64,000 nucleotides of DNA, taken from contig NZ_CP102846.1 in NCBI RefSeq assembly GCF_013307435.2, forward strand, positions 124,001 to 188,000, in the 5' to 3' direction. The translations under genes and the position numbers were made by a program. This stretch comes from Microvirga terrae (GTDB lineage: Bacteria; Pseudomonadota; Alphaproteobacteria; Rhizobiales; Beijerinckiaceae). The notes beneath the pieces were generated by a model. The model worked only from the letters and a program-made list of their open reading frames with translations, did not search any database and was not told where the DNA came from. Shown here one piece after another: positions 4,077 through 60,631 of the stretch; positions within the stretch are counted from its first letter, which is position 1; each line of letters opens with the position of its first letter.

Positions 4077-6101
4077 ATGGCAAACTACTCTGTGCCGACT
4101 ATCGACGATATGGGCCTTCACAACCTTTTTAGGGAGTTCGGCACCGCGAATATCACCGCCTTCAATTTTACGTCATTGACGGTTCAATTCGCCAATGGCG
4201 GATCAGCTATGATCGAGGGCGTCGGCCTGGTTGTGGATGAGCCTCAGTACAATCCGCTGGTATCGGGGACGGTCACGACGATCCGGATTTTCAATGCCGT
4301 CCATATCGAGGTCGCCTCGATCACGGATTTGAACATCGGAGCGAATGGCCTGGGAGCGGTGCTTACGGCTGATCCGTCAGACTTCGAGTTTCCAATTAAC
4401 ATCATGCGCTACATTTTCTCTGGCGATGACAGTGTCCAGGGGAGTGACGGCTACGACGTCATTTATGTCGGTACCGGCAATGACACAGTGAGCGCAGGGG
4501 ATGGGACCGATTTCATCTATGCAGGACCTGGCGCTGCCACCATCGACGGCGGCGAAGGCCGGGATACACTGAATTTCGCGGAGGATTTCGCAGGTTACCC
4601 GACCTACACGGCGGGGCTTAACCTCAATCTCGTTGCTGGAACCGGGACAAACACGGACGGTAAGCCTCTCCTGATCTCGGGCATTGAGGATGTCGTTGGC
4701 AGCCTCGGCGATGACACCATCACAGCGAACGACTTCGACAACTTCCTTTTTGGAAATGATGGAGATGACTCCATCTCTGCCGGCGGCGGCAATGATATCC
4801 TCTATGGCGGCCGTGGCAATGACACGCTCGACGGTGGCGCCGGAGATGACATGTTCTTCATCGGCGAGATGGAGATGAACACCTACCTGACCGGTAACAA
4901 GCTTCTGATCGGCGGCGAGGGACACGATACCGCGAACCTGCTCGGATCCCTTTCTGACTTCGACTACACGTTCAACGGTGACAACAACCTCGTTTTCACT
5001 CACAAAATTTCCGGGGCAAAGTTCACAGTCACCGGTATCGAGACCATTTTCGACGGCGTGAGGACCTATACCGTCGACGACTTCAGGAGCCCCATTGAGA
5101 CTCCTCCTACGGACATATTCATCCCGGAGGATACCTTCTGGTCCTATACCATCCCTGAGAGCGTATTCGGTCCAGGGGCCGTCAACGTCAGTTTCAAGAC
5201 CGACGGCTTCCAGCCCCTGCCCTCTTGGATCACATATGACCCGGCCACTAGGACGCTCTCAGGCACGCCGCCTAAGGACGATAATGGCGCTCTGGGCCTT
5301 TCGCTGACGGCGATCGTCAATAGCTCTCCGAAGACGATCTATCTCAATATCGACTTCACACCGGTCAATGATGCTCCGACGAACCTGACCCTGAGCAACG
5401 GATCCGTGATCGAGAACCCGGCCGCCGAAGCCTTCGTTGGTCAGCTGAGTGCAACCGACGTCGACAGTGGCGCCGTGCTCACATACGAGCTGATCGATAG
5501 TGCCGGCGGCCGCTTCAAGCTCAATGGCTCGCAGCTCGTCGTCGCCGATCCTGCAAAGATCGACTATGAGCAGGCCCGCAGCCATACTGTGATTGTCAAG
5601 GTTTCCGATCAGTTCGGTGCGTCCACGACCCAGAAATTCACCATCTCCGTTCAGGACGTGGCCAAGGAAACGGCCGTCGGCGGCATGGGTGACGATCTCA
5701 TCAAGGGCGGATCGGGCAGTGACAAGCTCTACGGCGGCCTCGGCAAGGACGTGCTGACGGGTGGCAAAGGCAAGGACGCCTTTATCTTCGACACGAAGGC
5801 ATCCAAGGCCAACGCCGACAAGATCACCGACTTCAACGTCAAGGATGACTCGATCTATCTCGATAACGCGGTCTTCACGAAGCTTGGAAAAAAGGGATCG
5901 GAAAAGAGCCCGGCAAAGCTAAATCAGGACTTTTTCACCATCGGCTCGAAGGCCAAGGATAAGAACGACTATATCGTCTACGATAACAAGAAAGGCGTCC
6001 TGTACTACGATGCGGACGGTTCTGGTAAGGGCAAGGCGGTTGAGATCGCCACGCTCTCCAAGAACCTCAAGATGACCGCGGCTGACTTCTTCGTTATCTG
6101 A
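4077..6101 (+). CDS. RTX calcium-binding protein with cadherin-like domains, type I-secreted
   Basis: A 674-residue acidic secreted protein. Residues about 115-290 hold RTX nonapeptide repeats (GGxGxDxxx, such as GNDGDDSISAGGGNDIL) that bind calcium outside the cell. Residues about 340-430 form a putative Ig-like domain with SWITYDPATRTLSGTPP, and 435-535 a cadherin-like domain (SATDVDSGAVLTYEL). A second RTX block near 540-575 leads into the C-terminal segment DAFIFDT...ADKITDFN, typical of type I secretion substrates. There is no N-terminal signal peptide, as expected for that route. No ABC exporter or membrane-fusion genes are near, so secretion would depend on genes elsewhere. A surface adhesin or matrix role is inference. 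It ends at a strong terminator. Confidence 0.85.
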   Translation: MANYSVPTIDDMGLHNLFREFGTANITAFNFTSLTVQFANGGSAMIEGVGLVVDEPQYNPLVSGTVTTIRIFNAVHIEVASITDLNIGANGLGAVLTADPSDFEFPINIMRYIFSGDDSVQGSDGYDVIYVGTGNDTVSAGDGTDFIYAGPGAATIDGGEGRDTLNFAEDFAGYPTYTAGLNLNLVAGTGTNTDGKPLLISGIEDVVGSLGDDTITANDFDNFLFGNDGDDSISAGGGNDILYGGRGNDTLDGGAGDDMFFIGEMEMNTYLTGNKLLIGGEGHDTANLLGSLSDFDYTFNGDNNLVFTHKISGAKFTVTGIETIFDGVRTYTVDDFRSPIETPPTDIFIPEDTFWSYTIPESVFGPGAVNVSFKTDGFQPLPSWITYDPATRTLSGTPPKDDNGALGLSLTAIVNSSPKTIYLNIDFTPVNDAPTNLTLSNGSVIENPAAEAFVGQLSATDVDSGAVLTYELIDSAGGRFKLNGSQLVVADPAKIDYEQARSHTVIVKVSDQFGASTTQKFTISVQDVAKETAVGGMGDDLIKGGSGSDKLYGGLGKDVLTGGKGKDAFIFDTKASKANADKITDFNVKDDSIYLDNAVFTKLGKKGSEKSPAKLNQDFFTIGSKAKDKNDYIVYDNKKGVLYYDADGSGKGKAVEIATLSKNLKMTAADFFVI

Positions 6102-6119
6102 CGCTCATCTCTAATCGCT

Positions 6120-6155
6120 AAGCCCTTCCCAATGAAGGTTGGGAAGGGCTTTTCA
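6120..6155 (+). terminator. Rho-independent terminator after the RTX gene
   Basis: Stem AAGCCCTTCCCAA / TTGGGAAGGGCTT with a 6-base loop (TGAAGG), followed by a T run, 18 bases after the stop codon. Confidence 0.85.
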
Positions 6156-6230
6156 TTGGTTGGGTGATCGGCGTATCAAACCAGGGAAAGTTCCTCGGAG
6201 AGCCATGTCGCACCCATTCAACCTGGTCCA

Positions 6231-7472
6231 ATGCGTTACCGCAGCCGAGTGCTCCTCCATTTCGGAGCCTCCGGCAGGTATAGGAGCACAAATCCGGTGT
6301 CGCTAACCGGCCAGATCATTTTCATGCCGTGGGTCACGCTCCCACATGCGGTGACAATTAGTGGGATCCGGTTCTCGCCGATTGACTTGAAGGATCCGAT
6401 TTCGGTCATAGGGCCCGAAATGGCGCCTACCGTCGCAATGGCCCTTAGGCCCTACGTCGATCGGCGCGGCCATCAAATCGAGAGTTGCACAATCCTGCTG
6501 CGGCCCCGCCATCAGCAGTCCTGGAATATGCCCGACCGAATGTGGGGAGCAGCACGGCGCGCTGCCGAGATCCTGGCCCTGTCCTGTCTGGCAGAGCAGA
6601 GATTTATGGAAGGCCATTTAAGCCCCCATCTCAACGCGACGATGTTCCAGATTATCGGGCAGCGGATCACCGCCGGGTCGGACCAGATCGGTTTGTTCTA
6701 TCCGCGGCGGGGAGGTGGGCTTCGGGTAGGTGGCGTCCGTTTCAAGGATGTCGTTTTTCAGCGCCCATCCCAGGTAGAGGGTACCAGGTGCGAGGCCGTC
6801 AATGTCCGCCTCGCCAGAGCCCTTGCGAAAGCCAGCAGGTCAAAATCCCCAATCTGGGATCCGATAGCTTCCTCCCTTGAATTTTTCCTTTTGGGGAACG
6901 CCGAGGTTCCAGAACTCGATTGGGAAAGCTGCATCATGCTCTCGGCCATGGCCTTTGAGAGGCTCCTCGAGCCGGCTCAGGCCAACGCCCAAGGTGTCGC
7001 GGAGGCCCTTGCCAATCTATGGGCTCCATATGCCAGCCGGACCCTGGCTCAAGCCAAGAGGGTAAAGCCCGACAACAAGCCGGATTTCGCGAAGGTGCAG
7101 CAGGAATGGCCGCTACACCGCAAATGGATGAAAGAACTTTACGAGGCGAGGAGCTCACGCGCGCACCGCGGCCCTCGGTCTGTCTTCAGCCAAAATTGGA
7201 GAAACTTGCAGCACATGGTTATCGCTGCCTTTGTCTATCCACTCGCGATCAAACTGAAGCTCGCCAATGCAGATCTTTACCAGCTGAGCGCGCGTGAAAA
7301 GGGTGCTTGCGAGGCCCTGGATCGGCTTCTCGACAGTCACTGGGGCAAAGGCTGGGAGAAGGATCCGGAGTGGTCGAAAATTCTTTCGATGGCCGAAGCC
7401 GAGCATGAATGGTTGCGCATTATTGAAGAAGCGTACGACGAAACGACTAGGAAGGGCGAACTAGGTTCGTGA
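6231..7472 (+). CDS. HEPN-motif protein, coupled to an alpha/beta hydrolase
   Basis: A 413-residue protein I do not recognise as a whole. Residues 304-313 read YEARSSRAHR, which contains the R-x4-H signature (R307, H312) of HEPN RNases within a helical C-terminal region, like the Apea-type HEPN proteins found in defence and stress islands. The N-terminal 200 residues are mixed alpha/beta with no motif I can name. A start at 6324 (MPWVTLPH) would remove 31 residues and looks more like a natural N-terminus; neither start has a clear ribosome site. The stop overlaps the GTG start of the hydrolase (GTGA), so the two are translationally coupled. RNase activity is inferred from the motif. Confidence 0.55.
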   Translation: MRYRSRVLLHFGASGRYRSTNPVSLTGQIIFMPWVTLPHAVTISGIRFSPIDLKDPISVIGPEMAPTVAMALRPYVDRRGHQIESCTILLRPRHQQSWNMPDRMWGAARRAAEILALSCLAEQRFMEGHLSPHLNATMFQIIGQRITAGSDQIGLFYPRRGGGLRVGGVRFKDVVFQRPSQVEGTRCEAVNVRLARALAKASRSKSPIWDPIASSLEFFLLGNAEVPELDWESCIMLSAMAFERLLEPAQANAQGVAEALANLWAPYASRTLAQAKRVKPDNKPDFAKVQQEWPLHRKWMKELYEARSSRAHRGPRSVFSQNWRNLQHMVIAAFVYPLAIKLKLANADLYQLSAREKGACEALDRLLDSHWGKGWEKDPEWSKILSMAEAEHEWLRIIEEAYDETTRKGELGS

Positions 7473-8278
7473 AACGAGTGCTCGCAATTATCATCTCCGT
7501 GGTCATCGGGATCTGGCTGGCCATTGCTCTTCTTGTTTTTGTCACCCAGCGCCATCTGGTTTTCCCGCGGCACCTCTTGCCGCCGGTCGCGCGTATGGAG
7601 CAGCTCTCCCCAGAAATTCAGGAGGTCACGGTCGAGACCGCAGACGGTGAACGTCTCTATGGACTGTGGAAAGCACCGCAAGCTGGCCGCCCCGTGGTCG
7701 TGTCATTTCATGGCAACGCCAGTGCTCCGGGCTGGGCCGCAGACCGGTTCTCAACCGGGCGTTGGGCCGCTCATGGCTGGGGCGTTCTGGCTATTGCCTA
7801 TCGAGGGTATCCCGGATCGACCGGTTCTCCGAGCGAAACTGGGATCCTAGCGGATGGTGAAGCTGCGATATCCTTCGTTCAAAAGGCGGCTCCTGAGTCC
7901 GCCATTCTGGTCCACGGCCACTCGCTGGGTACAGGGGTTGCTGTCGCCATGGCGGCGGCCCATCCGGTTATCGGGGCATACCTCGAAGCGCCCTATGCAT
8001 CCCTGCTTAGTCTCGCAAAGCGGCAGTTCCGGTATCTTCCAGGATTTCTGATGCGAGACCCCATGCGATCGGATTTGCGGGTCGCTCGCGTGACAGCGCC
8101 GGTCATCGCAATCCATGGCAAACAGGATCCGGTAATTCCGGTCTCCTCTGCGAGGGAGTTGATCGGCAAGGCCACGAGCAATTCGCGATTAATCGAGGTC
8201 GACGGAGATCACGTCTCCATCCTTGGCGAGGCTGATGGTGAGGTCGAGGATTTCTTCCGGCGAGCCGTCGCGCCCTAA
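7469..8278 (+). CDS. Membrane-anchored alpha/beta hydrolase
   Basis: A 269-residue protein. Residues 5-27 are a hydrophobic membrane anchor or uncleaved signal, and the rest is an alpha/beta-hydrolase fold like the Bem46/ABHD13 group. Visible are the oxyanion region SFHGNAS, the nucleophile elbow GHSLG, an acid in HGKQDPVIP and the catalytic His in DGDHVSIL. The catalytic domain should lie outside the cytoplasmic membrane. The GTG start at 7469 overlaps the previous stop by GTGA. Substrate is unknown; the family includes esterases and lipases. It converges with the HAD-antitoxin gene, ending one base before it. Confidence 0.8.
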   Translation: MKRVLAIIISVVIGIWLAIALLVFVTQRHLVFPRHLLPPVARMEQLSPEIQEVTVETADGERLYGLWKAPQAGRPVVVSFHGNASAPGWAADRFSTGRWAAHGWGVLAIAYRGYPGSTGSPSETGILADGEAAISFVQKAAPESAILVHGHSLGTGVAVAMAAAHPVIGAYLEAPYASLLSLAKRQFRYLPGFLMRDPMRSDLRVARVTAPVIAIHGKQDPVIPVSSARELIGKATSNSRLIEVDGDHVSILGEADGEVEDFFRRAVAP

Positions 8279-50433: not shown

Positions 50434-50807
50434 TGCAGCCTCCTGGTTCGGAGATAGTAGCTAGGCATCGTAGCCGTCGGTCGCTAGAGGAGACCGTCCG
50501 GTACCTTGTTGGCTACCCTGTCGTCATTGCTGCCGGGTGCCGCTTCGACCAAGCCAGGTGAGGTCGTGCAGGAGAACAACCTGTCAGATCTCTCAGGCTG
50601 ACATGATGCTCCTCGACCACATCTCTCTCGTGACGACAGCCGGTAGAACTCGATTCGATGAAGTCGGAGAAATGTCGGTCGCCCACTTCCGATGCTTCGG
50701 ATCAACCTCTACTCGTGCAACACCTAGTCACAGTACCGTCCTTTGTCGGATTTTCATTGAACCTCGGCGCGGCACTGTGCCGGCAAAACGCAGAAGGTCG
50801 TAGGGAA
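50434..50807. other. Stretch without a supported gene
   Basis: About 370 bases between two divergent genes; no good frame or RNA structure seen. Holds their promoters. Confidence 0.35.
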
Positions 50808-51428
50808 ATGAAAAAGCTTGGAGTTGCTCTTTTGACGGCTGCCGCGCTCAGTGTAGCGGCAGCATCAAGTGCTGAAGCTCGCGGCTTCGGCGGTTTCCAC
50901 GGTGGTGGGTTCCACGGCGGTGGCTTTGGCGGTTTCCATGGTGGTTATGGCGGCTTCCGCGGTGGCTATGGCGGCTTCCGCGGTGGCTATGGCGGCTTCC
51001 ATCCGAGCGGCTTTGGTGGCCTCCGCGGTGGTTACGGCGGCTATGGCGGCTTCCACCGAGGGTTCGGCTACTATCGAGGGTACGGCTTTCACCGGGGATT
51101 TGATGGCTTCGGGGCCGGCCTGTTCGCCGGTAACCTATTCGGTGTATACGGCTACCCGTATGATTACGGCTATCGGGCTGATTACGGGTACCCAGCGTAC
51201 GACTATTATCCCTATCGCTATCCGGACTACGGCTACTACCGTTACCCCGCCTACAGCTACTTCCCCTACAGCTATCCGGCACAAAGGGTTGTCATCGTTC
51301 GGCGACCTCGCCATACCGTCCATATGCACAGAAGGCATCGGATAGCCACCACTTCGCCGCACCAGCTTCGGGGCGTGCATGCGCGCTTCGCGCCGTCGCA
51401 GCGGGTTGGCGAGGCGCGTGCTCAATGA
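50808..51428 (+). CDS. Secreted Gly/Tyr-rich repeat protein
   Basis: A 206-residue protein. The signal peptide MKKLGVALLTAAALSVAAASSAEA is preceded by AGGG. The mature N-terminal half is built of GGFHGG, GGYGGFRG and similar repeats; the next part is Tyr/Pro/Asp-rich (YGYPYDYGYRADYG). A basic end RRPRHTVHMHRRHR follows. Such proteins coat the cell surface or bind divalent ions, but specifics are unknown. Repeats at DNA level at 50890-51060 could drive length changes. Confidence 0.65.
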   Translation: MKKLGVALLTAAALSVAAASSAEARGFGGFHGGGFHGGGFGGFHGGYGGFRGGYGGFRGGYGGFHPSGFGGLRGGYGGYGGFHRGFGYYRGYGFHRGFDGFGAGLFAGNLFGVYGYPYDYGYRADYGYPAYDYYPYRYPDYGYYRYPAYSYFPYSYPAQRVVIVRRPRHTVHMHRRHRIATTSPHQLRGVHARFAPSQRVGEARAQ

Positions 51429-52660: not shown

Positions 52661-53585
52661 TCAGGTTGTTCCGGCGAGGGTGTGAGCCGGTGTTCGTCGG
52701 CCGAGGCTACCATGCGGGCGCTGCTGATTGTACCAGGTCAGCCACCGCGGCAGGTCGGCGGCTCTCGCATGGGATGAGCTGAACGGGATCGCATAGGCCC
52801 ATTCCCGCAGCAGCGTCTGGATGAAGCGCTCGGCCGTGCCATTGGTCTTGGACGTGTAGGGCCTCGTGCGGACGTGCCGGATCCCGAGCAGCCGCAGCGC
52901 CTCGCGGAACAGCCGTGCGACGTACCCTGACCCGTTGTCTGTCATCACCCGCTCGGCCCGGATGCCACGCGCTCTGAACCGGCGTAGCGCCCGTACCAGG
53001 AAGGCCGTGGTGGAGCGGCGGGTCTCATCCGGCAGCACCTCGACGCAGGCGAGCCGGGTGGCGTCATCGATGGCCACATGAAAGCAGTCGTACCCAGCAC
53101 TGGGGTTGCGCCGATCACCCGTGATGCGATGACCCACCCGCTCGAAGCAGGCCAACTTCTTGATGTCCAGGTGGATCAACTCGCCGGGGTGCTGGCGCTG
53201 GTAGCGCCGCGGCGGCTCCTTTGGCTCCGGGGCTGTCAGGCGACCCAAGCCACGCCGGATGAGCCAGGCTGGGACAGTGGAGCGGACCAGCTTCAGCTTG
53301 CCGGCGATCTCGTCGGCCGTCAGCCGGTACTCCCGCCGGAGGTGCTCGATTACGCCAATCCAGTACGCGGCCGTGCGATTGGCCACCGTCGTGGGACGGA
53401 AGGAGCGCTTCTCCAGTCCGCTTGGACCTTCAGCCTTGAAGCGGGCCAGCCACTTGCGCGCTCCGCTCGCTGATGCCGAAGCCTCGGGTCACCTCTCGGA
53501 TTGCCTAGCCGTCTTCGAGGATACGGCGGATCATTTCCGCTCGACCCAAGCGGGTCGTACGGGCATTCTGATGCGGGTTGTTTAT
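52661..53585 (-). pseudogene. IS481-family transposase, inactivated
   Basis: The C-terminal 241 residues are open and contain the DDE catalytic core (HLDIKKLACFE, VMTDNGSGYVARLF, TNGTAERFIQTLL). Upstream the N-terminus NNPHQNARTTRLGRAEM then IREVTRGFGISERSARKWLARFKAEG is hit by a TAG at 53508 and a frameshift near 53460, and the expected ATG before NNPHQN is ATA. Three lesions leave it unable to move by itself. Its terminal repeats could not be placed. Confidence 0.8.
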
Positions 53586-53803: not shown

Positions 53804-54898
53804 CTAATCCTGAACGGTGATAGGCTTCGCGCGCCGAGCGTTTGCAAGGCTTATCGCCCATATTATGAGGAAAAGCACAATCACCAGCATGCCAAGCACT
53901 TCGAAGTTGTCACCAAGTCCGTAAACAGTGTCCCAGAATGGCCCGTGAACCGACAGTTTGTCACCAATGATGCTCACCACTTGTATCGTAGCGATGAACA
54001 CAGCCAATACTACAGAAACCGACGTCACAACCAAGTTGTAACGGATTTTCCGCGTAGGATCGATAAACGCCCAGTCGTACACTTTCAACATAAGGAGACC
54101 CTCAGTTGCGTCGACAAGCGACATGCCTGCGGCGAACAGGATAGGAAAGATTACTATCAAGCTTGGCTGCAGTCCCTGTGCAGCATGGGTTGCGGAAATA
54201 CCGAAGATTGCAATCTCAGTTGCGGTATCGAAGCTCAGGGCAAACAGAAAGCCCACAGGCATCATATGCCAGCTCTTATTCACGAATCGAAACAACGGTC
54301 GAAACATGCGCGAGAACAAACCGCCCCCAATCAACAGTGCTTCCAGTTGCTCCCGCGAGCCTCCGTGACCTGATTTCATGCGACGGTACGCTTTGAGGGT
54401 GGAAGCTAGGATTGCGGCATTCAAAACGGCGATCCCAGCGAGGAACGTGATAGTCACAGACGTGCTAACGGCCTCTCCGAGAGAGCGGTAACTGTCGAAG
54501 ATCTCCAGGGTGGCCGCGGCATATGCCGCTAAGATTGAGACAACCACGATGAGAGCCGAATGCCCTACAGCAAAGAAGAAGCCAGTTGCCACTGGACGTT
54601 GCCCATTCTGAACCAGTTGGCGAGTTGCATTGTCAATTGCGGCGATGTGATCGGCATCGACTGCGTGCCGGAGGCCGAGCATATACACGACAGAGGCGAC
54701 ACCCAGAAGCGAGGGATTATCCCAGAAGACAACAAGTGCCCAGAGCCAGGCCCCAACATTCAGTACTGCCAGAGTGAGATAGAGAGCAGCAACTCTAAAC
54801 CGTTGAGCTGCGTACATGGACTGTATACCTCCTTTGATGCCCTTCTGATCTAAGGTCATGGACAACCTCGGTTGTTGCTGTGCGCTAGTCATATTCAC
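53804..54898 (-). CDS. NiCoT-family nickel/cobalt transporter
   Basis: A 364-residue transporter with about eight transmembrane helices. The metal-sensing motif RHAVDADHIAAIDN (HX4DH) is in helix II, and FALSFDTATEIAIF and LFAAGMSLVDATEG are the other conserved segments. NiCoT proteins import Co2+ or Ni2+ across the inner membrane. A GTG start overlaps the channel gene by GTGA; an ATG two codons later is also possible. As last gene of the operon it resembles NhlF, the cobalt supplier of Co-type nitrile hydratase in Rhodococcus. This supports cobalt as the metal of the enzyme here. Confidence 0.85.
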   Translation of the reverse strand: MNMTSAQQQPRLSMTLDQKGIKGGIQSMYAAQRFRVAALYLTLAVLNVGAWLWALVVFWDNPSLLGVASVVYMLGLRHAVDADHIAAIDNATRQLVQNGQRPVATGFFFAVGHSALIVVVSILAAYAAATLEIFDSYRSLGEAVSTSVTITFLAGIAVLNAAILASTLKAYRRMKSGHGGSREQLEALLIGGGLFSRMFRPLFRFVNKSWHMMPVGFLFALSFDTATEIAIFGISATHAAQGLQPSLIVIFPILFAAGMSLVDATEGLLMLKVYDWAFIDPTRKIRYNLVVTSVSVVLAVFIATIQVVSIIGDKLSVHGPFWDTVYGLGDNFEVLGMLVIVLFLIIWAISLANARRAKPITVQD

Positions 54899-55722
54899 GA
54901 ACTCCGGCTTGTGCTGTGAGATGATCCAATTACCCTGCTATGCTCCTCACCTGTTTGTGCGCTTGACTCCGCCGATACACCTAGGACAGAGGACGCTAAT
55001 ACTGGATCGATGCTCGCCCGCACTGGACTACCAAAATTTCGGTAGAGAGTGTTGATGGTAAGTTGCGCTAGGGCACCTCCGGCCAACTGAGACACGATGT
55101 AGATGACCGCGCCAACTACCGATTGTTCAGTAATACGACTTGCACCGAGGAGCGCAAAGGATAGTGCCGGGTTAGCTAACGAGGAGGGAGCTGCAGAGAT
55201 GCACGCCATTAGCCAGCCTGCTGCTACGACCGGTACAACCTCAATCCGAGAGGCGCGAACGCAACAAAGTACGACGGCTACGAGTCCAGCGCTCACTATG
55301 AATTCGCTCGCGGCACTGCGAAGGACGTCTGCTGCTTCGGACGAATCCGTAGATTGGATCCCAAAAAGCAAACGTGCGAGTTGTATTCCCAATGCTGCCC
55401 CAAGCACCTGAGCTAGAACATAGCTCATGGTACTTGGTCCATCTCGCTCACCTGAAAGCCATTGAAGTAGAGTGAATACGGGGTTGAAATGACCTCCCGA
55501 CAGAGGCCCAAAGGCCAGTATGAGACTGCCAAGCGCCCCAGGTATTGCTAACGCGCCCGAGACGTGCCCCGGCTGACTCCATAAGGAAGAGGAGAACACC
55601 GATCCGGCAACCACGATGGAAAGTAGCATCGTCCCGAGCGCTTCGGCGGTTGCACGTTTGACGAGCGGGACACTGCTATTGCGCTCGTAGTAGCATATGC
55701 CGCTGTGATCGCCCGCTCTCAT
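54895..55722 (-). CDS. MIP-family channel (aquaporin-like) with atypical selectivity motifs
   Basis: A 275-residue channel with six transmembrane helices and two half-helices. The first signature is HFNPVF (NPV for NPA), the second SLANPALSFALL, in which the Arg after NPA in the selectivity filter is Leu. The filter is therefore wider or less polar than in aquaporins and may pass small amides, nitriles, acids or ammonia; that is inference. A TTG nine codons earlier would overlap the previous gene by 23 bases; the ATG at 55722 is preferred. It is tightly packed within the nitrile-hydratase operon. Confidence 0.75.
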   Translation of the reverse strand: MRAGDHSGICYYERNSSVPLVKRATAEALGTMLLSIVVAGSVFSSSLWSQPGHVSGALAIPGALGSLILAFGPLSGGHFNPVFTLLQWLSGERDGPSTMSYVLAQVLGAALGIQLARLLFGIQSTDSSEAADVLRSAASEFIVSAGLVAVVLCCVRASRIEVVPVVAAGWLMACISAAPSSLANPALSFALLGASRITEQSVVGAVIYIVSQLAGGALAQLTINTLYRNFGSPVRASIDPVLASSVLGVSAESSAQTGEEHSRVIGSSHSTSRSS

Positions 55723-55726
55723 GTGC

Positions 55727-56086
55727 TCACGATCCCATTCTCCGTTCAACTTCGGACAGCGTTGCGGCCCAATTCTGCTCCACCGCTTCCATTTTTCGGG
55801 CGAGTTCCTCGGGCGTTAATATTCCCTTTTCAAACAAAATATTGGCGAACGCGGCAATCCACCGCTCATAATAGCTAAGGTGGGCGATAACCTCACTTCC
55901 AAGAGCTTCAACCCCACGACGCTTCTCCTCTGTGTTGATGATCTTGTGATAGTCTAAGACGTCGGCAAGCGCGTGGCAGCGCTTCTCCCACGGTTCGAGT
56001 TCATGCTCAACTCTGCTGATCTGATCTGCGGGAAGACCACCGATGTCATTGGGGAGACGTGTTAACAGGTGTTCAGATCCTGACAT
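55727..56086 (-). CDS. Nitrile hydratase beta subunit, N-terminal half (separate gene)
   Basis: A 119-residue protein matching the helical N-terminal domain of the NHase beta subunit: LPNDIGGLP...EPWEKRCHALADVL, then SYYERWIAAFANILFEKGIL-TPEELARK. The C-terminal barrel is absent and is encoded separately at 56731. A three-gene layout of this kind is known for thiocyanate hydrolase (ScnB) and the toyocamycin nitrile hydratase (ToyK). It starts 2 bases after the alpha gene. Confidence 0.75.
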   Translation of the reverse strand: MSGSEHLLTRLPNDIGGLPADQISRVEHELEPWEKRCHALADVLDYHKIINTEEKRRGVEALGSEVIAHLSYYERWIAAFANILFEKGILTPEELARKMEAVEQNWAATLSEVERRMGS

Positions 56087-56088
56087 AA

Positions 56089-56727
56089 TTAAACTCCCCC
56101 GTCGCTATTGAGAGCGGGCACAACACCAATCATTGAATCTCGCGTGACGAGAGCTGCCAGTTGCTCCTCATTTAGGTGTTCTGTGGACTCTGGACGCATT
56201 GGAAGGACAAGATAGCGAACCATTGCTGTCGAGTCGCTGACGCGGACCTCGACGTCATCTGGAACATGCGTTCCAAACTCTGCGAGAACGGCACGTGGCT
56301 CGTAAACTGCACGCGCTCGGTACGGCTTTAGCTTGTACCAGTCAGGTGGGAGGCCTAGCACAGGTCGCGGGTAGCAGGAGCAAAGGGTACAAACAACGAG
56401 GTTGTGCACCCTCGGGGTGTTCTCAAGAACAACCAGCTGCGTATCGTCGTAGAAACTAATGTCCAGTTCCTCACAGGCCGCGCGGCCGTTCTCCAGAAGA
56501 CGTTGGCGAAATTCGGGATCAATCCACGCGCGTGCCACTACCTTTGCTCCAAGCGCAGGAGTTCTTGAGTCGAGTACTTCAATTTGGCGCCTGATCTCTC
56601 CCGGCTTGATCAAGCCTTTTTCGATGAGGAGTTCTTGAACAGCGGCCTCCATCACGTCGAAATAGCTAGGAGCGCTGGTATTGGAGATCTCGCTGTGTGA
56701 ATGGTGATGGTGTTCAGAATGAGCCAC
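56089..56727 (-). CDS. Cobalt-type nitrile hydratase alpha-like subunit
   Basis: A 212-residue metal subunit. The metal site VCTLCSC (C113, C116, C118; Thr marks the cobalt type, Ser the iron type) is followed by YPRPVLGLPPDWYK, and EVRVSDSTAMVRYLVLP and LVTRDSMIGVV close it. In the family two of the three Cys are oxidised to sulfinic and sulfenic acids. It hydrates nitriles to amides; the related thiocyanate hydrolase gamma subunit converts SCN- to carbonyl sulfide. Tyr-Pro after CSC and TRDSMIGV favour a nitrile substrate. The N-terminal MAHSEHHHHSHSE is His-rich and might hold cobalt. It sits between the two beta half-genes, 2-3 bases from each. Confidence 0.85.
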   Translation of the reverse strand: MAHSEHHHHSHSEISNTSAPSYFDVMEAAVQELLIEKGLIKPGEIRRQIEVLDSRTPALGAKVVARAWIDPEFRQRLLENGRAACEELDISFYDDTQLVVLENTPRVHNLVVCTLCSCYPRPVLGLPPDWYKLKPYRARAVYEPRAVLAEFGTHVPDDVEVRVSDSTAMVRYLVLPMRPESTEHLNEEQLAALVTRDSMIGVVPALNSDGGV

Positions 56728-56730
56728 GTC

Positions 56731-57081
56731 TTACTCTCCCGCGAGCCAGGTTTCGAAGATGTCGATCTGAAGTCTGTCAGATGAGGATCCATTGTAGCTC
56801 GACCAAATCGAAGCCATTGGAACGGCGATTCGATAGTAATAGCCCTTCCATCCAGCATTTTTGCCGTAACCTTCCTCTTCATTGTCAATCGCTCTGGGCC
56901 GGACAACCGACAGCACGGTAGCCCGCTGTCCGCGTAAGTACGATGGAACACGATAATGGCCGATGGGTGAACGGGTGAGGATTCTCACTTGGTCTCCAGG
57001 TCCAAAGGCTGGAATTTCACCGAGTGCTGCGACGGGCTGCTCGGACTTTGACAGATCGTTCTGGGACAGTTCATTCATCAC
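56731..57081 (-). CDS. Nitrile hydratase beta subunit, C-terminal half (separate gene)
   Basis: A 116-residue protein matching the SH3-like barrel of the NHase beta subunit: FGPGDQVRIL, GHYRVPSYLRGQRATVL, YYRIAVPMASIWSSY, LQIDIFETWL. Compare ScnA of thiocyanate hydrolase and ToyL. It is the promoter-proximal gene, with AAAGGAG ahead of the ATG, so the barrel subunit is made first. The short extra loop NEEEGYGKNAGWKG near the middle is unusual and may shape the active-site entry. Confidence 0.8.
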   Translation of the reverse strand: MMNELSQNDLSKSEQPVAALGEIPAFGPGDQVRILTRSPIGHYRVPSYLRGQRATVLSVVRPRAIDNEEEGYGKNAGWKGYYYRIAVPMASIWSSYNGSSSDRLQIDIFETWLAGE

Positions 57082-58694
57082 TTAACGCTCCTTTCAGCCT
57101 GATGGTCTCACACTTGCGAGATACTGTCCTAGGCGTGATACGTTCGCTGTATTCTGTGCTTATGTCATGATCAGTGAGGGCACGCAGAGATGTCAGCTGT
57201 GAGCGATCGTTACCTTCCGGTTGGCATTCATTTACCAAACCAAGTCGCAGCCGTCTCTAGAGTTCTAATTCGCGGTTGGATGTGCAGCAATTATACAGCG
57301 GTATATAAAGATCTGGCGCCCCGGCGATGGCCCCCGGGGAGGCGAAGTTGGGAGCAAAGGGATACGGTTCGTTGCTACCCTTCGAGATCGAAGCTGCATT
57401 TATGATCTGCAGCCTGAAGCGAGTCAGCCTGAGCGCAAATGATGAGACCGTGAATCTGCTCATGAGAGCACGAGGCTGGGAGCTGTGCTGACCTGCCGCA
57501 ATCATTCGCGAGCTTTCAGAAAGCCCAGGTTCGCGAAACGGCTAAAGCGCACATTCCATGATGATGGTCTGCTCGTCCCCGCAATAGCTGTCACGAATTG
57601 CCTTGGAGATCAACCTGGCATAGAGGTTCCTAGCGATAACGCATAATGGGACTACCAGCCTCGTCCTCGCTCTTTCGCTGGCTGGACGCTCGATCTCCCC
57701 CATCAGTGCTGCGTCGATCCGTTTTTGCTTGCGGGCAGGCGCCCCGGACACATCTCGTACGTCCTGACCGTTCCAGGCAGTTCGCCCGACAACCCGAAAT
57801 CTCTGCTCGTCGCTGCTGCAAAGCCTTCGGAGCCAACTAGAATAGCACCCCTACTGGTTTTGTGCCGCCCCTGACGACTACATCCACAATACGTAGGATG
57901 CGCACCCACACAGGCCTCGCTGTTCGACGCCCATGGGCGAGCCTACGTCACCTCAGATCGATGTTTCATACCGTCGACTATTAGCTGGCTCGCGGACAAA
58001 GGCATGCCCCCCTCAAGCTCTCATAACTCCTCGCCGCCACTGCACTCGACATATAGGTCGAGTTACGTCGGGCGAGCTCCAGGCGGTCCGCGGTGCCCAG
58101 GGTGACTTTGTCCGCAGATGGATCATTCAAACATTTTCGGAAGGGCTTTGTATTGGGCGTTTCCGTCGACCCCCTAAAAGGACCGGCCCTCCGACGTGAG
58201 ACCGTAAAGATGCTGAACGTCGAGCTGACACAAATGTTATGTTAGAGTGTGCAGAATTGTGCTGAGCGTTGTGAACACAGTTAGACAGGGCTTTCGAGAA
58301 GATCCACAGACTCTCTTTCGGCACACCGGGTCTTCGTTGTAGACTTTCTGGGCCGATCATTAAAAATCGTCGATGGAGCGATTATGTATCCCAACGAGAT
58401 TCGGGCGTTCTTGAAAGACCTAGCGGAGCCCCAGCTGCATACTGATGGCGTGATGCTTGCTAGTGTCGACGCAAGACTGGTTTGCATGTTAGCCCCCTCA
58501 CTTTTGCCGCCGTCTTGGGCGGCCTCTTTTTGAGGGAAATCCTACGGCAACAACGAAGCTTTGGTACGAGTCTCGGTGCATTAGGAGGCCATGAATAATG
58601 TGCTAGCATCGATCGCGACGTTGTCGACAGATCCAGGGTCATAACGCTCCTCAAGCTCGAGGTTCCGTATTACACTCCTGGCGGAGATCAGACT
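57082..58694. other. Long intergenic region
   Basis: About 1.6 kb. Its left end should hold the nitrile-hydratase operon promoter. Open frames at 57542-57751 (minus) and 58384-58530 (plus, MYPNEIRAFLKDLAEPQ) are short and unsupported. A hairpin GCCGCC-GTCTTG-GGCGGC with CTTTTT follows at 58505-58533 and is probably a terminator. Confidence 0.4.
58505..58533 (+). terminator. Terminator-like hairpin
   Basis: GCCGCC/GGCGGC stem, then CTCTTTTT. No certain gene ends at it, so it may belong to a lost gene. Confidence 0.5.
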
Positions 58695-59147
58695 ATGCAC
58701 GCTTCTAGCGCTAGAAGCCTAACCGGTATCGCTATCGCCGGTATTATTTCCGGGGCGGTGGTGGCAACCGCCATCGGTCATGAGCATAGGCTGTCAGCGG
58801 ACAGCCATGGGCATTCATCACAGCGCACAGCCAAGCGGACAATCTCACCTGATGAAGAGGCCTTCATCACGCAGAGCAATGCTGCCATGAGCAAGATGAT
58901 GGCTGAGATGGCGGCTGGTCCATCTGGTGACATCGATCGGGATTTCGTTGCGATGATGATCCCGCATCATCAAGGCGCCATCGACATGGCGGCGGCCGTA
59001 CTCCGCTTTGGCCGCAACGAGCAGATCCGACGTCTCGCGCAGGAGATTATCGTCACGCAGCAGCAGGAGATCGCCGCCATGCGGCTTGCGATCGGCGATC
59101 CGCCTCACTCCGTGGGCGGATCCCCAGCGGAGCCGGCATCACCTTAG
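58695..59147 (+). CDS. Exported DUF305-family protein
   Basis: A 150-residue protein with a hydrophobic signal-like start (LTGIAIAGIISGAVVATAIG). The DUF305 core has FVAMMIPHHQGAIDMAAAVL and EIIVTQQQEIAAM, with Met/His pairs in a ferritin-like helical bundle. Relatives (CopM) bind copper or silver in the periplasm. It ends 32 bases before the beta-propeller gene, with which it is probably co-transcribed. Confidence 0.85.
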   Translation: MHASSARSLTGIAIAGIISGAVVATAIGHEHRLSADSHGHSSQRTAKRTISPDEEAFITQSNAAMSKMMAEMAAGPSGDIDRDFVAMMIPHHQGAIDMAAAVLRFGRNEQIRRLAQEIIVTQQQEIAAMRLAIGDPPHSVGGSPAEPASP

Positions 59148-59179
59148 CTCCCGTGCCAGTACAGGAAGGGACGAGACCC

Positions 59180-60631
59180 ATGAAGCGACAGGTTGTGACA
59201 CTTGCAGTCATGGCGATGGTTGCCAGCTCCACCGCCATAGGGGTTCAGGCCGGACAGGCTCCCGGGGCAGCAGCCGATCCGGACGTGAGGATCAGCCATC
59301 GGGACCGGGTTTATGCGGCCGAACAGTTCTCAAACACAGTGTCCGTCACAGATCCTACTGACAACAGGTTGCTTGGCGTCATCCGATTGGGCGAACCCCA
59401 GCCGGCCAACTTCAGCCCGCTCTATCGGGGCCAGGTTCTTGTCCACGGGATGGGCTTCTCTCCTGACCACAAGACCCTTGCGGTCGTGTCCATCGGGTCG
59501 AACTCCGTTACTTTCATCGACACCGCCACGAATGCGGTCAAGCATACGACCTACGTCGGGCGTTCGCCTCACGAGGCCTTCTTCACGCCCGATGGAAAAG
59601 AGGTCTGGGTCACTGTGCGTGGTGAAGACTATGTGGCTGTTCTCGACGGCGCGACCTTTGAGGAAAAGAGCCGGATCCAGGTGCCAGGTGGACCAGGCAT
59701 GCAGATCTTCTCACCGGATGGGACCTATGGCTACGTCTGCTCCTCCTTCAACCCCGAAACGGTTGTGATCTCCGTTGCCGATCACCGGATTGTCGGGCGA
59801 GTGAAACAGGAATCTCCGTTCTGCCCGAACATTGCCGCGACACCGGATGGCCGGCAGGTCTGGTTCACCTTGAAGGATGTCGGCCGTACCATGGTGTTCG
59901 AGGCCCAGCCTCCGTTCTCCGTTCTGAAGACTCTCGACACCGGGCCCATCACCAACCATGTCAATTTTGCGTGGACGCCTCAGGGCTCCTTTGCCTATGT
60001 GACCGTCGGTGGGTTGAACGAGGTGAAGGTCTTTCGGACCGACGACTTCTCGCCCGTCGGGACGATCCCGACCGGAAACCTCCCGCATGGGGTGTGGCCG
60101 TCAGGCGACGGCAGCCGGATCTATGTCGGTCTTGAGAATAGCGACGCCCTTGCTGTGATCGACACCGCGACAAACCAAGTGGTTGCGACCATTCCGATCG
60201 GACAGGCCCCCCAGGCCCTTGTTTACGTGCCGAACGCTGTTCCCGACGGGGATGGGACGAGTGGTCTGCAACCGCTCGGCGTGGCCGGGCAAGCCACCCA
60301 CATCGTGCTCGCCCCTGTCAGGGGCGGCACCGCACCGACAAGCGTATCACTGTTCGACCAGGGGCTGACCCAGATCCTCCAAGCCTCCGTTGCCGGACTG
60401 GAGCCCAGGAAGCCTTACGTTCTGGCGCTGGCAAGTCATCCGGATGGCACAGGCGTCGTTGAACCCCTGTCAGCCTTTATGACCAATCCAGCCGGCTCTG
60501 CCATTGTCAATGCAACCGGTCCAATCCGCCAAATCGTCCAGGGAAGGGAGCCTGCCCAACGCCGCTATCTGATGGTCGTACCGGGGACAGCGACTGACAT
60601 GGGCCCCCCCGTTCAGGTTCAGGTTGAATGA
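59180..60631 (+). CDS. Exported YVTN-type beta-propeller protein
   Basis: A 483-residue protein. The signal peptide MKRQVVTLAVMAMVASSTAI is preceded by GGAAGGGA. Residues 45-370 are seven-bladed propeller repeats with the YVTN-like phrase (TLAVVSIGSNSVTFIDTATN, VWVTVRGEDYVAVLDGAT, IYVGLENSDALAVIDTATN). The last 110 residues are a separate beta domain with no name. Co-transcribed with the DUF305 protein. Such pairs recur with metal-handling genes; electron transfer is not implied, since no heme motif is seen. Confidence 0.8.
   Translation: MKRQVVTLAVMAMVASSTAIGVQAGQAPGAAADPDVRISHRDRVYAAEQFSNTVSVTDPTDNRLLGVIRLGEPQPANFSPLYRGQVLVHGMGFSPDHKTLAVVSIGSNSVTFIDTATNAVKHTTYVGRSPHEAFFTPDGKEVWVTVRGEDYVAVLDGATFEEKSRIQVPGGPGMQIFSPDGTYGYVCSSFNPETVVISVADHRIVGRVKQESPFCPNIAATPDGRQVWFTLKDVGRTMVFEAQPPFSVLKTLDTGPITNHVNFAWTPQGSFAYVTVGGLNEVKVFRTDDFSPVGTIPTGNLPHGVWPSGDGSRIYVGLENSDALAVIDTATNQVVATIPIGQAPQALVYVPNAVPDGDGTSGLQPLGVAGQATHIVLAPVRGGTAPTSVSLFDQGLTQILQASVAGLEPRKPYVLALASHPDGTGVVEPLSAFMTNPAGSAIVNATGPIRQIVQGREPAQRRYLMVVPGTATDMGPPVQVQVE

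Follow-up and report, generated by a model that had tools for sequence, protein, structure and literature searches.

A split-beta, cobalt-type operon of the nitrile hydratase superfamily with a MIP channel and a cobalt importer in Microvirga terrae

Introduction

Nitrile hydratases (NHases) are industrial workhorses, and thiocyanate hydrolase, which belongs to the same superfamily, provides the route from thiocyanate to carbonyl sulfide (COS). As a rule, NHases act in tandem with an amidase, and a NiCoT-family transporter (NhlF) is known beside NHase genes. The toyocamycin nitrile hydratase ToyJKL consists of three subunits and acts on a nucleoside nitrile. Here, we describe a five-gene operon of this superfamily from Microvirga terrae, located in a stretch of 64,000 nucleotides (contig NZ_CP102846.1, positions 124,001 to 188,000 of the forward strand) that is called the window below and in which all coordinates of the operon are given.

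Cobalt NHases mature via an activator protein, as stated in PMC3511329 and PMC4709657, and a title among the references cited there says that P15K promotes the expression of thiocyanate hydrolase. Excerpts of the review PMC7193024 give the thiocyanate hydrolase gene order as alpha-beta-gamma-activator; the NHase and thiocyanate hydrolase gene orders in these excerpts do not include the one described below (beta C-half, alpha, beta N-half), and the review does not mention aquaporins. Thiocyanate hydrolases are treated as a gene tree in the portion seen of PMC10098168, and the family name of NhlF appears in that of PMC2667541. Among the open-access papers listed in our searches, which exclude subscription papers and preprints, there was neither an operon joining an NHase to a MIP (aquaporin family) channel nor a title on a split-beta NHase with a channel. 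Open-access full texts contained no paper joining nitrile hydratase, thiocyanate hydrolase, and aquaporin and none pairing any two of SH3-like, P460, DUF302, and NHase, and the sections seen of PMC2667541, PMC3557214, and PMC12625717 describe no such operon. The terms nitrile hydratase, aquaporin, and cobalt transporter occur together in PMC4284471.

The operon and its lineage

On the minus strand, between 57078 and 53804, five intact open reading frames (ORFs) follow one another, encoding the C-terminal half of an NHase beta subunit (C-half), a cobalt-type alpha subunit, the N-terminal half of a beta subunit (N-half), a MIP channel, and a NiCoT importer (Table 1). The genes are separated by 3, 2, and 4 bases, and the last two overlap by 4 bases. 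The original prediction had named five tightly packed genes on one strand, the motifs VCTLCSC and NPV, and Leu in place of the filter Arg; all frames proved open with a family profile for each, and the motifs are present in the sequence as stated. A beta gene broken by artefact was considered and ruled out since no ORF is disrupted and every one of the 78 complete loci of the lineage has the same split. A promoter scan gave no more sites than shuffled sequence.

A protein search with the C-half (116-amino-acid query, length range of 64-203 amino acids, which excludes most full-length betas) delivered 204 proteins including the window's own. In a one-genome-per-species collection, 79 C-half loci were found, and one more from the relatives (L083; L numbers denote individual loci) brings the set to 80. 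The same order, C-half, alpha, N-half (C-alpha-N), is found in each of the 78 complete loci. The original prediction of a three-gene split-beta enzyme of the cobalt type, with its metal subunit between the halves, is supported. Because 79 loci encode the same C-half and 78/78 share this order, the gene set is not a chance arrangement. The loci are spread over Alpha-, Beta-, and Gammaproteobacteria, Bacteroidota, Acidobacteriota, Verrucomicrobiota, and Planctomycetota, with genera including Rhizobium, Azospirillum, Sphingomonas, Pseudomonas, and Flavobacterium; the set carries 45 genus labels, some of which are not true genera, and Rhizobium is over-represented (12 loci, 12/12 with the MIP gene). 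In the plasmid records examined, annotation goes no further than "nitrile hydratase subunit alpha" or "SH3-like domain-containing protein". Class-wide searches (385 genomes each) found the window-type pair of MIP and C-half only in the window's own genome (next-best scores 186 vs 280 bits for the MIP and 86 vs 181 bits for the C-half) and therefore say little on its frequency.

Some copies are broken: an IS21 element lies within the alpha region in Rhizobium sp. C104 (L132 8969-11204), and alpha is split in two pieces in Rhizobium sp. Root708 (L062 6318-6980), so that the operon seems dispensable in some strains. Moreover, a second split-beta NHase-like kind with the order N-half, C-half, alpha (N-C-alpha) occurs in many Alphaproteobacteria (L103-L105, L107-L110, L121, L167-L195). 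It shares with the window type the two-protein beta and mostly the alpha Arg described below, but differs (L103, L170, L179, and others) in its order, in having mostly Leu for Lys in the N-half, and in lacking a MIP gene within the stretch examined. A plasmid of Streptomyces sp. NBC_01176 (L134 3657-7429) carries N-C-alpha followed by an aquaporin with canonical motifs, a hypothetical gene, and a NiCoT gene, which suggests that the pairing of a MIP with such an enzyme arose repeatedly.

Pocket residues

The residue after CSCYP in alpha is Arg in 79/79 members of the lineage, and the residue before the conserved Arg of the beta N-domain is Lys in 79/79, the window included. The beta position was read by counting back from the YY..W of the N-domain in rows that keep this Arg; rows without a readable beta motif were left out (8/41 N-C-alpha, 4/35 full-beta, and 1/2 thiocyanate hydrolase rows). 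The Streptomyces locus has the same Lys/Arg pair. Of the thiocyanate hydrolase loci, L196 (Azospirillum ramasamyi) has Arg at both positions and L197 (Roseomonas marmotae) has Arg in alpha. N-C-alpha rows have Leu at the beta position (29/33 readable) and mostly Arg, also Lys or Val, in alpha. Full-beta rows have Ser (25/31 readable) or Phe (3/31), together with Trp in alpha (30/31, or 30 of all 35). The rows were grouped by script, which placed L111 among the N-C-alpha rows though it resembles a full-beta NHase.

We take the alpha position to be gamma Arg136 and the beta position to be beta Arg90 of thiocyanate hydrolase. Reportedly, Yamanaka and colleagues found in 2013 that these two positions decide between thiocyanate and nitriles. 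Consistent with this, the NHase alpha chain 3vyh_A has Arg where 4ob1_A, the same enzyme, has Trp, and it scores 4.1 bits above 1ire_A. For the chain 3vyg_C, presumably the reverse swap, the score on the alpha fragment drops by 4.2 bits relative to the second gamma chain of thiocyanate hydrolase.

The MIP channel

A MIP gene is present in 39/77 lineage loci and directly follows the N-half gene in 36/77, across Alpha-, Beta-, and Gammaproteobacteria. Among 76 control rows (one locus counted twice, as L103 and L185 are the same genome place) no MIP gene was found; control flanks were about 1.5 kb on each side and those of the window type up to 6 kb, so that only close neighbours are comparable. 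An extra gene stands between N-half and MIP in L069 and L071, and the MIP gene of L065 lies 5 kb away. There (Pseudomonas abietaniphila, L065 11383-12287), a second, diverged N-half precedes the MIP gene, within which the stretch ends, about 5 kb from a complete operon. A close C-half occurs in 13 plasmid records, at least 8 of which also have a MIP match (among the 30 listed of 68 records with one); CP050110 has no annotated MIP. The channel, which the original prediction had counted as part of the operon, thus co-occurs with it in many genomes.

The filter Arg is absent from all 54 aligned MIPs (37 from operons, 17 from databases), the Streptomyces MIP apart, and the first motif is NPL in 47 of these operon MIPs and near kin; three rows were dropped from the count (L065 and P0016 cut short, L067 frame-shifted near the second motif). 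The closest known channels are AqpS-like aquaglyceroporins (Sinorhizobium meliloti aqpS, hit H27). The 29 best other MIPs of the class, none of which has an NHase gene within the stretch examined, share with the operon MIPs the family and the missing filter Arg (Val in 29/29), but their first motif is mostly NPA (22/29; NPL in 1/29), and in the MIP tree the operon MIPs and their near kin are set off from the other sampled MIPs by a branch with support 100. The distinguishing mark of the operon MIP is its first motif, NPL in most. The part seen of a review on prokaryotic aquaporins (PMC6912568) lists NPV, NPI, and NPS as rare first motifs, and NPL does not occur in it. The original prediction had taken NPV and Leu at the filter position as signs of cargo other than water or glycerol; Leu is indeed there, but it is less telling than assumed because the other class MIPs likewise lack Arg. 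A water or glycerol channel of the AqpZ/GlpF type requires two NPA motifs and the filter Arg, whereas the window MIP has NPV and NPAL. Structure comparison returned the aquaporin fold and nothing further.

Cobalt supply and maturation

A cobalt or nickel importer (NiCoT, the smaller NicO type, CbiM, or CbtA) lies within the stretch examined of 47/78 complete loci, which extends the predicted cobalt importer of the operon to several families. It accompanies 34/39 MIP-bearing and 13/39 MIP-less loci (Fisher p 1.9e-6, kinship ignored). That several importer families fill the same role, and that alpha carries CTLCSC, points to cobalt and not to iron. The window's NiCoT protein scores 323.1 bits with TIGR00802, narrowly below the cut-off of 333.05. 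In L198 and L133, CbtAB and a PAS sensor kinase system are found on the opposite strand.

No separate activator was recognised by eye among the ORFs between 50000 and 61000, and in the relatives 72/72 hits of two activator queries were the N-half, although a very diverged activator could escape both. We read the N-half as a structural subunit because it groups with beta N-halves and keeps the beta Arg. A double role as activator is possible since the activator-like ORF beside scnC (L196) resembles the N-half. The original prediction had seen no activator gene and had raised the question whether a half-beta protein might serve as one; the former stands, while the N-half groups with split N-halves, away from cobalt NHase activators.

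Kinship of the subunits

In the alpha tree, the window lineage forms one clade (22 rows, support 93) with the Streptomyces plasmid protein beside it (support 89). The full-beta NHases (and L111) lie across a branch with support 99 without any window-type member; the corresponding values in a smaller tree are 81 and 99. The alpha protein therefore branches outside the two-subunit enzymes. The two-subunit cobalt NHases (L001; PDB 3qxe, 1ugp) share superfamily and metal motif with the window type and differ from it in the full beta, the activator gene, the alpha Trp, and this separate alpha clade. In the larger alpha tree, ScnC stands on a long branch among N-C-alpha proteins. Approximately unbiased (AU) tests reject neither a clade of the window type, Streptomyces, and thiocyanate hydrolase (p-AU 0.793) nor one with the full-beta alphas (p-AU 0.766); branches are long, and in both tests the constrained tree outscored the unconstrained one, whose quick search had failed to reach it.

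In the N-domain tree (103 columns), the window N-half lies with split beta N-halves across a branch with support 100 from full-beta N-domains and cobalt NHase activators. The window type, Streptomyces, ScnB, and the activator-like ORF beside scnC form a group with support 97 on long branches, those of ScnB and the activators included.

Thiocyanate hydrolase ScnABC (Thiobacillus thioparus, PDB 2dd4; L196 and L197, whose named scnC genes were reached via a ScnB fragment) is like the window type in the motif CTLCSCYPRP, in a basic residue beside the conserved beta Arg (L196), and in a cobalt importer nearby (HupE or CbtAB). It differs in that the gene for the metal subunit is the last one and stands behind a single larger gene (L196, L197), which in L196 unites the N and C halves. 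L196 also has an ORF without annotation (7145-7897, in 5875-7897) that ends in an activator-like stretch.

Proposed function and alternatives

The protein families, the gene order, the conservation of the gene set, the two aligned residues, and the channel motifs were read from the sequence; from them we infer the cobalt, the subunit assembly, the lining of the pocket by the two residues, the anionic substrate, and the cargo of the MIP. The three proteins would form a cobalt(III) heterotrimer of the nitrile hydratase/thiocyanate hydrolase superfamily, in which the CTLCSC claw of alpha binds the cobalt and both half-betas jointly do the work of a single beta, while the NiCoT protein would import the cobalt. 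Alpha Arg121 and N-half Lys55 may line the active pocket, and since they do so in this model, the natural substrate would most likely be a small anionic nitrile, with thiocyanate (converted to COS and ammonia) as the first candidate and a small carboxylated nitrile as the next. The MIP with its Arg-less filter would most likely let a neutral product (COS, NH3, or an amide) out or a neutral small substrate in. That the operon encodes a cobalt enzyme of this superfamily is very probable, and a working heterotrimer is likely. A role of the MIP for the substrate or product of this enzyme is rather likely, an anionic substrate is slightly favoured, and thiocyanate itself is a somewhat unlikely choice. 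The explanation as a whole, a cobalt heterotrimer for a small anionic nitrile with NiCoT supply and a MIP for the neutral partner, has in our estimate an even chance.

We tentatively suggest, below even confidence, that the lineage is a third functional branch of the superfamily, an Arg/Lys-pocket trimer for a small anionic nitrile with a dedicated hydrophobic-filter MIP for COS, hydrogen cyanide (HCN), NH3, or a small amide. If true, it would provide what is, to our knowledge, the first case of an aquaporin-family channel being linked to a single metalloenzyme of nitrile chemistry. A third type in many bacteria would add a so far unassigned route for nitrile or thiocyanate nitrogen and possibly a source of COS, and with the attached pore one could examine directly whether COS, HCN, or nitriles pass through channels of the aquaporin family.

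Several findings weigh against this proposal, the strongest being the score below the thiocyanate hydrolase cut-off, the higher scores with NHases, the loci lacking a MIP gene, and the canonical Streptomyces channel. The MIP gene was not seen in 38/77 loci, including 5/5 of Bacteroidota, and since the channel of the Streptomyces locus carries the canonical NPA and NPAR, an Arg-less filter is not required everywhere. At the thiocyanate hydrolase loci L196 and L197 neither a MIP nor a DUF302 protein is annotated, and the beta position holds Lys where thiocyanate hydrolase has Arg, with the same charge. No carbonyl sulfide hydrolase was noticed in the 25 of 110 neighbour families shown. The alpha protein passes the NHase alpha profile (TIGR01323, 255.7 bits vs a cut-off of 249.85; three further lineage alphas fall just under it with 246.6, 248.2, and 241.1) and stays below that of thiocyanate hydrolase gamma (TIGR03887, 224 vs 291.45 bits; no protein in 398 genomes of the phylum exceeds this cut-off). 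In PDB comparisons, an NHase outscores thiocyanate hydrolase both for alpha (231 bits, compared with 173 for ScnC) and for the C-half (38.5 bits, compared with 26.8 for ScnA); the N-half (best match ScnB, 2dd4_B, 1.8e-9) is the sole subunit nearest to thiocyanate hydrolase. Finally, the deep branching of alpha stays ambiguous in these trees.

The profile and PDB scores speak for a true nitrile hydratase that converts small neutral nitriles or HCN (to formamide), with Arg and Lys as salt bridges of the trimer and a MIP that passes nitrile or amide, which we consider possible but less than even. Neutral nitriles, HCN, and amides fit a MIP better than an anion does, and Arg at the alpha position also occurs in most N-C-alpha loci. 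On the other hand, the Trp of full-beta NHases is missing in 79/79, and no amidase was found in the 25 commonest of the 110 families among 132 neighbour proteins, where small families could be hidden. The label "nitrile hydratase" of the original prediction holds only as a family name, with overall scores nearer to NHases, while the pocket pair is nearer to thiocyanate hydrolase. The pair, the split beta, and the best structural match of the N-half could speak for a plain ScnABC with reshuffled genes, as could the N-domain group that contains ScnB (long branches) and the common alpha clade not rejected by the AU test; yet alpha falls under the thiocyanate hydrolase cut-off, alpha and C-half are closer to NHases, the gene order is another, no separate activator was recognised, and ScnC sits apart among N-C-alpha proteins, which makes this reading rather doubtful.

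The channel might instead be an AqpS-like metalloid channel that belongs to a detoxification island and hitch-hikes beside the enzyme without any relation to it. The nearest other MIPs include proteins that carry the name arsenate reductase in their source or whose matches lie next to arsC and aqpS annotations, and the neighbouring MBL hydrolases, alpha/beta hydrolases, SDR proteins, P460 cytochromes, and DUF302 proteins resemble a mixed stress island. However, the MIP is the next gene on the same strand in nearly half of the loci and in three proteobacterial classes, it belongs to a distinct subfamily with its own first motif, it is absent from the control rows, and a second, unlike MIP accompanies the Streptomyces enzyme; a chance neighbour is disfavoured and the hitch-hiker improbable. 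Least probable of all, and by our estimate very unlikely, is descent of the N-half from an activator that assumed the role of the beta N-domain, C-alpha-N then being beta without its N part, alpha, and activator. The N-half does occupy the place of the activator in beta-alpha-activator operons, all activator-query hits fell on it, no other activator was recognised, and it is similar to the activator-like ORF of thiocyanate hydrolase (E ~1e-7), with which it shares its N-domain group. Nevertheless, it groups with split N-halves on the far side of a well-supported branch from the activators, and it keeps the beta Arg beside Lys, whose counterpart is absent from P14K in the part seen of PMC4709657. 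The preferred reading of the N-half thus remains that of a structural subunit.

Features and genomic setting

The coordinates in Table 1 rest on the likeliest start codons; the alternative MIP start TTG at 55749 would overlap the N-half gene.

Table 1. Features of the operon in the window
Feature	Position	Strand	Basis or remark
Shine-Dalgarno-like AAAGGAG, precedes the ATG of the first gene	57088..57094	-	sequence
Beta C-half (SH3-like barrel), 115 aa (amino acids)	56731..57078	-	PF02211 (NHase_beta_C) 9e-13; ATG at 57078, GTG at 57081 also possible
Alpha, metal-binding (counterpart of thiocyanate hydrolase gamma), 212 aa, GTG start	56089..56727	-	Pfam NHase_alpha 3.5e-82
Cobalt-ligand motif CTLCSC, alpha residues 113-118 (within VCTLCSC)	56374..56391	-	sequence
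Alpha Arg121; aligned place is Trp in NHase, Arg in thiocyanate hydrolase	56365..56367	-	alignment
Beta N-half, 119 aa	55727..56086	-	PF21006 (NHase_beta_N) 2.6e-17
N-half Lys55, adjoining the conserved Arg	55922..55924	-	Lys in 79/79 of lineage
MIP channel, 275 aa, ATG at 55722	54895..55722	-	Pfam MIP 2.5e-19
First MIP motif NPV (most operon relatives: NPL)	55477..55485	-	sequence
Second MIP motif NPA, then Leu in place of the filter Arg	55162..55173	-	sequence
NiCoT-family cobalt/nickel importer, 364 aa, signature HAVDADH	53804..54898	-	Pfam NicO 6.9e-77

The window sits on a 556-kb contig, and the operon has a GC content of 53.6% compared with 58.8% for the window. A transposase-like gene (integrase core, 52661-53386) adjoins it; the DNA of this gene matches two Microvirga plasmids at 85% and 80% identity. 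Acquisition of the operon by M. terrae is probable because, among the 37 genomes of the genus in the set, only its own contains a close C-half (next in the genus at E 1.3e-5). The 5.3-Mb contig C1 of the same genome encodes an ordinary cobalt NHase (L001) with its own alpha bearing CYPW, a full beta of 219 amino acids, and an activator-like ORF; this full beta was considered as the missing partner of the window's alpha and ruled out, as it has an alpha and an activator-like ORF of its own.

Neighbouring genes were surveyed in 132 proteins of 244 eligible ones (140 drawn, 8 left out). Within the stretch examined, DUF302 proteins occur in 33 of the 78 complete loci, MBL-fold hydrolases in 26, and P460 cytochromes in 7, and alpha/beta hydrolases, SDR proteins, AraC proteins, and two-component regulators recur near lineage loci. 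The DUF302 gene often stands directly after the MIP or N-half gene (for example at L008 8065-8493). A cytochrome P460 gene comes after the operon in Rhizobium leguminosarum and a relative (L081, L198, L133), with a sulfite oxidase gene slightly further on in L133. In the window itself, genes for a DUF305 protein and a YncE-like beta-propeller protein (58695-60631, plus strand) are found upstream of the operon; DUF305 also appears in 2 of the 132 neighbour proteins of relatives. Furthermore, the plus strand at 50658-51428 encodes a glycine/tyrosine-rich repeat protein of the GGFHGGYGGF type without a Pfam match.

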